Shown: positions 7,268 to 29,789 of the stretch, one piece after another | How positions within the stretch are numbered: the first letter of the stretch is position 1 | Layout: the number at the start of each line of letters is the position of its first letter | Origin: Bdellovibrio svalbardensis | Lineage (GTDB): Bacteria; Bdellovibrionota; Bdellovibrionia; Bdellovibrionales; Bdellovibrionaceae | DNA: 64,000 bases | Assembly: GCF_029531655.1 (NCBI RefSeq) | Contig: NZ_JANRMI010000004.1 | Span: 124,001 to 188,000, forward strand | Direction: 5' to 3' | Position numbers and translations under genes: made by a program | Notes under the pieces: generated by a model | Seen by the model: the letters and a program-made list of their open reading frames with translations, nothing else | Database searches by the model: none | What the model was told of the DNA's origin: nothing

Positions 7268-7330
7268 TTGGGGGTACGCCGTACCTTTTTGCCATGCGGG
7301 GCATCGCAAAAAGGTACGGCGTACCCCCAA
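7268..7330. repeat. Near-perfect 63-nt palindrome with long hairpin
   Basis: Arms 7268-7292 and 7306-7330 are exact reverse complements (25 nt each, containing GGTACGGCGTACC). The 13-nt centre adds an ATGC/GCAT inner stem after one mismatch. It lies between the actF terminator and the start of the Cys-rich repeat gene, so it would also fold in that gene's leader. Its AAAAGGTACGG core also occurs, reversed, in the direct repeats at 29399-29508. Confidence 0.85.
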
Positions 7331-9714: not shown

Positions 9715-11075
9715 TAGTGGTGCCCTCCTTCATTATCATAACCTACGTGCAAAACGGGCTTCACTTCCGCGATAGAAACCGCAGGGAACAAGCGCAAATA
9801 CAACAAGAACAAAGTCAGGAACATACCGAACGATCCAACAAGAACGCCCGTATCGAACCAAGACCATTGGTACATACCCCAGTTCGCTGGCAAGAAATCT
9901 CTGTGCAATGAAGTCACAGTGATAACGAAACGCTCGAACCACATACCGATGTTTACGAAGATAGAAACAACGAACATCACAGGGATTGAACGACGCATTT
10001 TCTTGAACCAGAAAATTTGTGGGATCAATACGTTACAAGATACCATCACCCAGTAAGACCAACCGTAAGGACCAAAGGCACGGTTTACGAACACGAAGCG
10101 CTCGTAAGGATTGCCTGAGTACCAAGCGATAAAGAACTCTGAAGCGTAGGCGTAACCAACCAACATACCAGTTGTCATGATGATTTTATTCATCACTTCC
10201 ATATGATCTAGAGTTACGTAGTTTTGGAATTCTTTGAAACCAATACGAACCAAAGTCATCAAAGTCACAACCATCGCGAAACCAGAGAAGATTGCTCCGG
10301 CAACGAAGTATGGAGGGAAGATCGTTGTATGCCAACCTGGCAAGTTAGAAACCGCGAAGTCGAACGATACGATCGTATGAACTGAAAGAACTAGCGGAGT
10401 TGAAAGACCTGCAAGAAGCAAGTAAAGCATTTCATAGTGACTCCAGTTCTTAGCAGTACCTCTCCAGCCCAATGACAAAGCACCGTATACAGAGCGGCGA
10501 ATTTTGTTTTTCGCGCGATCTTTAATAGTTGCGAAGTCAGGAACCAAACCGATGTACCAGAACACCATTGAAACAGTCGCGTAAGTTGATACCGCGAAAA
10601 CGTCCCACAACAATGGAGAACGGAAGTTCACCCACAATGGACCACGCTGATTCGGATACGGGAACAACCAGTAGTCCAACCAAGGACGACCTGTATGAAG
10701 CAATGGGAAAAGACCCGCTGTCATAACGGCGAATACCGTCATGGCTTCCGCAGTTCTTGCCACCGATGTTCTCCACTTTTGGCGGAAGAGGAACAAAACG
10801 GCAGAGATCAAAGTACCAGCATGGCCGATACCGATCCAGAATACGAAAGTAACGATCATGGTACCCCAGAATACCGGATGAGTAACACCCAGCAAACCGA
10901 TACCCACACCTACAACTGCACCCAGGATGCAGATGTAGAATAACAACAATGTTTTCGCACCGAGGAACATTGCCACCCAGCTTTTGGATGGGAAACGTTC
11001 AAGCGGAGCGCAGATGTCATCAGTAACATCTTTCAGTGTCTTATTTCCAAGAACTAATGGATTGCGCTTAATCAT
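9714..11075 (-). CDS. actC: Alternative complex III quinol-binding subunit ActC (NrfD-like)
   Basis: 453 aa, about ten transmembrane helices, NrfD/PsrC family ([51 protein letters not shown]). In ACIII it holds the quinol site and passes electrons to the Fe-S subunit ActB. The gene overlaps actB by the ATGA junction (11072-11075), implying translational coupling and equal subunit supply. Confidence 0.94.
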
Positions 11076-27797: not shown

Positions 27798-29015
27798 ATG
27801 CCGATTTTTGAGTATAAAGGTTTAACCCGAGACGGAAGAAACACCAAAGGCACCATCGACGCTGAAAATCAGCGCGCGGCCCGTGCCAAGCTCAAAAAAG
27901 ACAATATCTTTGTCGTCGATATCAAAGACAAAAAGAAACTGGATCCAAAAAAGAAGCAAGGCCCTCGCTCTACGAAAAAAGTTGGCGTTAAAGACCTGGC
28001 TTTGATGACTCGTCAGCTTGCCACATTGATTAAGGCCAATATCCCCTTGGTAGACGCCCTGCTGGCCGTTTCCGAACAGGTGGAAAACCCCACTTTGGCT
28101 GAAGCTGTTGCTGACTGTAAGAACATGGTCAACGAAGGTTCGCCTTTCTTTAAAGCCTTACAAAAGTATCCGAATATTTTCACCAACATCTATATCTCCA
28201 TGGTGGAAGCCGGTGAAATGTCAGGAAGCTTGGACACTCTTTTGTTGCGTCTTGCGGAATTCCTTGAAGCCCAGGCCGAACTTCGCGCTAAAGTTTCCAG
28301 CGCCATGACCTATCCTGTGATCATGTTGGTGGTGACCGGCGGTCTTCTCTCATTCTTATTCATTTTCTTGATTCCAAAGATGGTCACGGTCTTCGAATCA
28401 GCCCCTCAGCTGGTTTTACCTTGGTACACTGTGGGTTTGATCGCCATGAGTCAGTTCATGGTCAACTATTGGTATATCATTTTCGGCAGCCTCTTCTTGG
28501 CCATTGTGCTATTTAGAAACTGGAAGAGCACCCCTGCTGGAAAAGATCAATGGGATGCGATCTCATTAAGACTTCCTTTGATGGGACCGACTGTGCGCAT
28601 GGTCGCGGTGTCTCGCTTTACCAGAACTTTGGGAACTTTGCTCAGCGGGGGCGTTCCCATGCTTACCGCTTTGGATATCGTTCGAAACGTCGTCGACAAC
28701 CACGTTCTAGCAGTCGCCATCGACGAAGCCCGCAGCAATATCTCCGAAGGGGAAACAATCTCTGGACCTTTGAAAAAATCAGGCCAATTCCCACCGATCG
28801 TGATCCACATGGTCAACATCGGTGAAAAAACCGGCGACCTCGAAAACATGTTGATGCAAGTTTCCGACGCCTACGACTTCCAGGTAAAAAATAAACTCGA
28901 AGCCCTCACCAGCTTGATGGGACCCGTCGTCATCGTCATCATGGGCTTCGCCATCGCCGCCATCGTATTCGCGGTCATGATCCCAATGTTCGAAATGACC
29001 AACCTCGCCGGCTAA
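27798..29015 (+). CDS. gspF: Type II secretion inner-membrane platform protein GspF
   Basis: 405 aa, two homologous cytoplasmic T2SSF domains (about 65-165 and 268-370) and three membrane helices (near 168-190, 215-240, 377-399). MPIFEYKGLTRDGR at the start and ISMVEAGEMSGSLD / VHMVNIGEKTGDLE are diagnostic. It forms the platform that turns with GspE to lift pseudopilins. A terminator follows 25 nt after the stop, separating gspCDEF from gspG onward. Confidence 0.96.
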   Translation: MPIFEYKGLTRDGRNTKGTIDAENQRAARAKLKKDNIFVVDIKDKKKLDPKKKQGPRSTKKVGVKDLALMTRQLATLIKANIPLVDALLAVSEQVENPTLAEAVADCKNMVNEGSPFFKALQKYPNIFTNIYISMVEAGEMSGSLDTLLLRLAEFLEAQAELRAKVSSAMTYPVIMLVVTGGLLSFLFIFLIPKMVTVFESAPQLVLPWYTVGLIAMSQFMVNYWYIIFGSLFLAIVLFRNWKSTPAGKDQWDAISLRLPLMGPTVRMVAVSRFTRTLGTLLSGGVPMLTALDIVRNVVDNHVLAVAIDEARSNISEGETISGPLKKSGQFPPIVIHMVNIGEKTGDLENMLMQVSDAYDFQVKNKLEALTSLMGPVVIVIMGFAIAAIVFAVMIPMFEMTNLAG

Positions 29016-29040: not shown

Positions 29041-29073
29041 CCCACAATTCCGACAAATTGTGGGTTTTCCTTT
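29041..29073 (+). terminator. Intrinsic terminator after gspF
   Basis: CCCACAATT / AATTGTGGG, 9-bp perfect stem with 6-nt loop, followed by TTTTCCTTTT. Confidence 0.8.
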
Positions 29074-29398
29074 TATGGATCTAACGTAAATTTTTTCTAA
29101 AACAACGCCGGCGCCGGTGTTGCATTGCTTCTTCCGTTGAAAAAACCACTTCAAAGACATCTCTTATCAGCCAATAAAAACTTAAACCAATACTTCAGCT
29201 CCAACAAAACCAACTCATTCAGAGGTCACTTGATTGAAGCTCAATCTGTCAATCAACTTAAAGTAACTTCCAAGATAATTCACTAAGTATCCATAACTAC
29301 TAATTTGAAGGCGCATCATTAAATTCGAATTACACAATTGTGAACATTCAAAGGGTCCTCAAAAAATTTTATCTCAATAAAAAACACCACCAACTCTA

Positions 29399-29508
29399 AT
29401 AACGCAGTAGCGACACCAAAAGTAAGTCCGTACCTTTTCTCAAAAACACACCATCAATCCACATAACGCAATAGCGACACCAAAAGTAAGGCCATACCTT
29501 TTCCCAAA
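29399..29508. repeat. Pair of 46-nt direct repeats, period 64
   Basis: Copies 29399-29444 and 29463-29508 share ATAACGC, TAGCGACACCAAAAGTAAG and TACCTTTTC with about five differences. On the minus strand each reads AAAAGGTA...CTTACTTTT, able to form a weak AAAAG/CTTTT stem, and shares AAAAGGTACGG with the 7268-7330 hairpin. Confidence 0.8.
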
Positions 29509-29521
29509 TCATCGAAGCCGA

Positions 29522-29669
29522 GATTTTGAAGTTTCACTTAGCCAGTGCCTGACCGAAGAGAGGCCTTCGCCGGCGCCGGATGCGCGAACCGGGCAAAGCC
29601 CGGCGGCGACGAGGCAGGATGCCGTGCCGAACGAAGCGTCAGGCACTGGCTAAGTGAAACTTCAAAATC
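29522..29669. repeat. 148-bp element with perfect 32-bp inverted repeats and structured core
   Basis: Arms 29522-29553 and 29638-29669 are exact reverse complements (starting GATTTTGAAGTTTCACTTAG). The 84-nt core is far richer in GC than the flanks and can itself form CGAAG/CTTCG, CCGGCGCCGG, CCGGGC-AAA-GCCCGG and GGCA-GGA-TGCC hairpins. No clear target duplication and no transposase. Could be a non-autonomous mobile palindrome or a multi-branched RNA. Confidence 0.85.
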
Positions 29670-29789
29670 CCTCGCACCAAGAATTATTATGTGACAAAGG
29701 TCCGGCAAGAACAAAGCCAACGATGCTAACCGACTTTACCTGACATAAGAGGAGTGCTATTCTCCAAGTCTGTTAACAAGGAGAATTTA

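Follow-up and report, generated by a model that had tools for sequence, protein, structure and literature searches.

The window analysed here, a stretch of 64,000 nucleotides of Bdellovibrio svalbardensis DNA, contains within its T2SS cluster a long palindrome between gspF, which ends at 29015, and gspG. The question that it raises is whether this sequence regulates gspG, forms a structured RNA or is a mobile DNA element. Its two 32-nt arms are exact reverse complements placed 84 nt apart, as the initial annotation had reported, and they enclose a GC-rich core (GC 0.73, against 0.44 in the arms and 0.38 and 0.45 in the 200-bp flanks). Chance can be excluded for arms of this length, since the perfect inverted repeats in 60 first-order resamples of the window reached at most 17 nt. 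The core carries several small helices in addition to the arm stem, which agrees with the multiple small hairpins that had been proposed for it, and the RNA folding energy of the element is -91.6 kcal/mol (z = -10.9), a value equalled by none of 200 shuffles. The absence of a coding frame was likewise borne out, as no ORF of at least 80 aa overlaps the element. The parts of the palindrome and two nearby pattern matches are as follows:

29522..29669, + strand: whole element; + is the strand whose fold is apparently conserved family-wide, the strand being read from the mispair asymmetry described below
29522..29553, + strand: left arm, 32 nt, locus-specific sequence
29638..29669, + strand: right arm, 32 nt, which pairs with the left arm at every position
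29554..29637, + strand: conserved 84-nt head, common to all copies (83-95% in the same genome)
29562..29564, + strand: head helix P2, 5' side, pairing with 29626-29628; 6-7 compensated pairs in some copies
29626..29628, + strand: head helix P2, 3' side
29567..29572, + strand: head helix P4, 5' side, pairing with 29604-29609
29604..29609, + strand: head helix P4, 3' side
29573..29585, + strand: hairpin P6 (GCGC-CGGAT-GCGC)
29589..29603, + strand: hairpin P5 (CCGGGC-AAA-GCCCGG), compensated in many copies
29613..29623, + strand: hairpin P3 (GGC-AGGAT-GCC)
29041..29064, + strand: hairpin resembling an intrinsic terminator, which closely follows gspF and precedes the element (pattern match only)
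29661..29690, + strand: promoter-like sequence for gspG (pattern match only), with its -35 predicted to lie within the right arm

The palindrome is one copy of a real, previously unnamed Bdellovibrio family of ~150-bp intergenic repeats. In the B. svalbardensis genome, the 84-nt core matches ten further places at 83-95% identity (blastn), and a covariance model of the family, built from four copies (R1), finds 16 copies, which with one partner copy in a retrieved locus sequence makes ~17. The same model detects 2 to ~30 copies per genome in 22 of the 24 genomes of the genus, the two without copies being draft assemblies, and in only 3 of the 42 other genomes of the bacterial family. The element is thus not single-copy in related genomes, and the earlier suggestion of a dispersed, apparently non-autonomous element is borne out by its multicopy head. 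An exact-pattern scan of contigs, for which the pattern was too strict, matched only one Bdellovibrio MAG contig. Rfam gave no match at the gathering score and nothing relevant at a relaxed threshold, and literature searches found no published description of the ~150-bp Bdellovibrio repeat. A phage origin was rejected after a search of 50,697 phage records returned 0 matches.

The family also has structural variants. A subtype with a shorter head (52-72 nt) is found at L124 (4761-5189), L123 (5067-5200) and L183 (3503-3632), and in L124 it forms a head-to-head doublet, with rpoB-like and rplJ-like genes nearby. At L168 (G012, 10144-10358), P6 carries an insert of two hairpins (loops AGGAT and AGGAG) linked by CGCGTTAGCCCGTAGGG, and a palindrome in L092 holds a module that resembles this insert, with different stems.

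The position of copies varies between species, and empty or reduced sites exist at orthologous loci; one copy elsewhere, for example, has an empty site in G005 and others. The gspF-gspG copy is itself such a case, being absent from this spacer in the other readable Bdellovibrio genomes, the closest included. The proposed effect on gspG expression is therefore unsupported, as is a specific role in T2SS expression. The TATTATGTGAC sequence around the promoter-like -10 of gspG occurs also in species without the element, and the ATTATTATGTGAC stretch downstream of the element is conserved in species that lack it.

The same spacer harbors other long-arm palindromes with different heads in several genomes: an AT-rich head of ~110 nt in L094/L095 (G012 and G022); a related, longer one in L092 (G021); and a third, of ~70 nt, in L111 (G013). 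The gspF-gspG spacer may thus be a palindrome hotspot or a sign of a wider class. Just upstream of the window element (29379-29506) are two 64-bp direct repeats, 84% identical, with ACCAAAAGTAAGKCCRTACCTTTT, and one half of a hairpin at L122 (5224-5287) resembles them. A near-perfect 30-bp hairpin with a 3-nt loop (TTGGGGGTACGCCGTACCTTTTTGCC...) at 7268-7330 of the window has the GTACCTTTTT motif in common with these direct repeats.

Each copy in the B. svalbardensis genome has its own arms of ~29-32 nt, which in most copies are near-perfectly complementary. Among 90 copies, those at different loci with heads 97-100% identical have arms that are similar only at about the random level; orthologous copies in the same set mostly share their arms. 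Perfect arms had been taken as a possible sign of recent spread, a reading that this sample contradicts, since non-orthologous copies do not share arms despite near-identical heads. At the same time, several copies in the B. svalbardensis genome have a common outer GCGGGGATTTG and a loose arm consensus, and a G005 copy at a non-orthologous locus has the same arms as a G000 copy. The arms of separate copies are, to judge from this sharing, related by descent.

How the arms diverge can be followed in the sister genomes G012 and G022, where 14 of the first 20 fetched copies occupy the same positions in surroundings that are ~90% identical, with arm identities from ~0.3 to 1.0. At the orthologous loci whose arms have an identity of 0.6 or higher, 78 changes are double (paired) and 35 single, and 64 of the 78 double changes swap one Watson-Crick pair for another. 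This is the strong covariation that had been suggested as a check on the arms. Some loci combine many double changes with just one single change; in the pair L134/L151, 20 changes are double and 1 is one-sided. Arms and head can also change separately: L137/L158 kept the arms and changed the head; L128/L159 kept the head and changed the arms.

The mismatches that remain in the arms are strongly asymmetric. Read in the + sense of the window, an ungapped search with equal penalty for all mismatches gave 141 G.A, 46 G.U, 6 A.C, 6 A.A, 4 G.G, a few others and no U.C. A structure-guided recount on the covariance-model alignment, again read on the window + strand, gave 150 A.G, 59 G.T, 15 A.A, 8 A.C, 4 T.T, 3 G.G, 2 C.C and 1 C.T; the model itself has the opposite orientation, and any preference of its own for G.U would therefore work against this result. 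When one of each orthologous pair is removed, 84 A.G and 35 G.T are left. Such strand-specific mispairs indicate that one particular folded strand is what is kept, and this strand appears to keep a fixed relation to the head in every copy; in the window copy it is the + strand. In the arms of all copies, the mismatched A lies in 5'-GAY for 62 of the 84 A.G mispairs, mainly opposite 5'-RGC, and such mispairs tend to be separated from one another by 4 or 6 pairs. A replication-strand bias was rejected, as there is no orientation bias between the replication halves.

The mispair spectrum also bears on which polymer folds. An excess of G.U over A.C might be read as proof of RNA, and this argument was dropped after a control with RNase P RNA from 22 of the same genomes, in which 11.5% of pairs are G.U and 0.16% A.G. 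In the element, G.U (G.T) makes up 2.0% of the arm pairs and 0.14% of the varying head pairs. In RNA nearest-neighbor terms A.G and C.U cost the same (5.4) and G.U is cheap (1.3), whereas in DNA terms A.G costs 3.0, less than C.T (4.3) or A.C (4.5). With DNA parameters, 94 of 98 copies are more stable when folded as the strand identified from the mispairs than as its complement, although the folding parameters for isolated mispairs are crude. The fit to DNA is incomplete: the DNA energy file gives G.T a high cost (4.8), which leaves the second commonest mispair without explanation by these parameters, and the context preference of A.G fits only weakly (rho -0.39 and -0.52). Taken together, the scarcity of G.U relative to RNase P, the energy ranking of A.G and C.T and the stability of the chosen strand favor a folded single DNA strand over RNA as the probable working form. 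The asymmetry test, combined with an RNA control from the same genomes, is cheap and can be applied generally to covarying palindromes in order to distinguish RNA from DNA and one strand from the other.

The main rival, which we rate as possible but on balance unlikely, is the structured RNA that the initial annotation had also considered: a 3'-UTR, intergenic or small RNA transcribed from the window + strand, in which the conserved head would bind a protein or protect or end the mRNA and the stem would be constrained in pairing only. Strong stem covariation and a single favored strand are as expected for such an RNA, and so is the location of the copies, which in the B. svalbardensis genome lie mostly close behind stop codons and often between convergent genes. 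Over many loci, divergent contexts are rarest (9 of 96, from crude ORF calls that are too noisy for orientation statistics). The G006 genome, which may be that of B. bacteriovorus HD100, holds 13 copies. If that identity holds, the copy at 1339121-1339274 is located inside APsRNA6, a small RNA of the attack phase that has a FliA promoter (1,338,787-1,339,441, + strand; PMC3627812). This overlap suggests that transcription can reach at least one copy, although one such case among 13 copies is not compelling and APsRNA6 is transcribed in the direction opposite to the mispair-favored fold. The RNA reading is disfavored by the G.U frequencies given above, the large excess of A.G over C.U despite equal RNA energies, the lack of a U-tract following the stem, the absence of an Rfam match, and the terminator-like hairpin upstream and promoter-like site downstream of the window copy. 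Csr/Rsm small RNAs carry CAGGAU-like hairpin loops, as do many Bdellovibrio heads; unlike them, however, the element does not conserve GGA, has many copies per genome and has G.U-poor helices. A CsrA sponge or CsrA-binding small RNA was rejected on the ground that GGA is not invariant (present in ~80% of P3 loops and about half of P6 loops, the remainder of the latter being mostly CGA), though CsrA is present in 24 of 24 genomes.

Three other explanations are rated lower still. Quasipalindrome correction, in which mutations of one arm are copied to the other at replication, could by itself keep the arms complementary in a neutral DNA fossil, with no selection, and the predominance of double over single changes, most marked in L134/L151, is what it would produce; it is nevertheless improbable, as it predicts neither the head-relative strand asymmetry (150 A.G versus 1 C.T) nor a conserved head, and the replication halves show no orientation bias. 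At one convergent locus of the B. svalbardensis genome, the element stands where an ordinary intrinsic terminator is found in six other species; it may have replaced a terminator or inserted near one. Several copies in this genome are only 22-46 nt from both stop codons. That the element serves generally as a functional replacement of bidirectional terminators, ending transcription of convergent genes, is however very improbable: there is no U-tract in the favored sense (TTTT occurs in 33% of the downstream 60-nt stretches), copies occur in tandem contexts too, the window copy is preceded by a terminator-like hairpin that is not part of it, and neither the conserved head nor the DNA-like mispairs would be explained. 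The unrelated arms on near-identical heads at different loci, together with the terminator hairpin at one empty site, could also mean that the arms were captured from the target, the head entering pre-existing palindromes or duplicating target sequence in inverted order. This we consider scarcely credible, since the loose consensus and outer GCGGGGATTTG and the arms common to the G005 and G000 copies point to shared arm ancestry, which contradicts target-derived arms, and a search of 649 kb turned up few head-less palindromes of such length.

The arrangement of the copies provides a further clue. All 17 close pairs (copies at most 1.5 kb apart; observed spacing 132-565 nt, in nine genomes) are head to head, where ~1.8 would be expected by chance, although the 17 are not all independent since some may be orthologous between close genomes. 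Inverted doublets are characteristic of REPINs, which also show compensatory stem changes and for which a ssDNA form has been proposed (PMC3116915), and the working analogy is therefore close. Like the REP/REPIN and RAYT system (PMC3116915, PMC2817692), the Bdellovibrio family consists of short, dispersed, non-coding extragenic repeats with inverted doublets and a covarying hairpin. There are clear differences, however: REPINs conserve outer 16-mers and vary inside, whereas the Bdellovibrio family conserves the inner head and varies in the stem; each element is ~150 nt long instead of 20-40; and the copies are mostly singlets, the pairs being a minority of the 193 counted copies, with no GTAG-type tag seen, no strong flank consensus seen around them and no linked RAYT. 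A linked RAYT was rejected because the ten Y1 genes examined have no palindrome within 1.5 kb, the number of Y1 transposases shows no significant correlation with that of the element copies (rho 0.31, p 0.14), and G008, G013 and G017 have no Y1_Tnp despite 6-11 element copies.

Other known repeats resemble the element in part. ERIC, NEMIS/Correia and YPAL (PMC2267715) are likewise palindromic intergenic sequences of 100-170 bp, with many copies per genome and a predicted fold, but they keep one shared stem sequence, whereas Bdellovibrio loci each have their own arms. A MITE would have terminal inverted repeats in common between loci and a duplicated target; here the arms are unshared between loci and no duplication was seen at the compared sites, none of which was a perfectly clean insertion; no excision was seen. 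In integron attC sites, one DNA strand folds, structure outweighs sequence and variation is paired. The Bdellovibrio element is similar in its apparent single-strand DNA folding, its structure over sequence and its paired variation, but its copies are scattered and not seen in integron gene arrays, its doublets are inverted rather than tandem, and it has a conserved multibranched head.

The explanation that we prefer, with about as much confidence as doubt, is a folded-ssDNA element, REPIN-like and non-autonomous, whose architecture is new in that the inner head is conserved and the stem varies. Its working form would be a folded single DNA strand, in which a long hairpin stem of ~30 bp, free in sequence, bears the conserved multibranched head. 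Copies would be inherited together with their arms and then diverge through paired changes; selection for the hairpin would maintain arm complementarity while the sequence drifts, possibly assisted by correction events in which one arm of the hairpin serves as template for the other. As the element is non-coding and forms head-to-head doublets, it may work like a REPIN or another ssDNA-hairpin element and be mobilized in trans. The ssDNA working form, this mobility and the reason for which the element is maintained are thus proposals drawn from the pattern of copies and mispairs. A stronger proposal, which we make tentatively and consider rather unlikely, is that this is a new bacterial DNA element with one folded strand, a branched head and a locus-individual stem actively kept self-complementary, recognized by an enzyme that has no relation to RAYT or integron systems.

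If the preferred explanation is true, the family would add a second architecture, with a conserved head and a free stem, to the few bacterial repeats that seemingly live as folded ssDNA, and would do so in Bdellovibrio, the model genus of predatory bacteria. Its mobilizing enzyme, if one exists, would have as its substrate a structure whose stem is almost free of fixed sequence.
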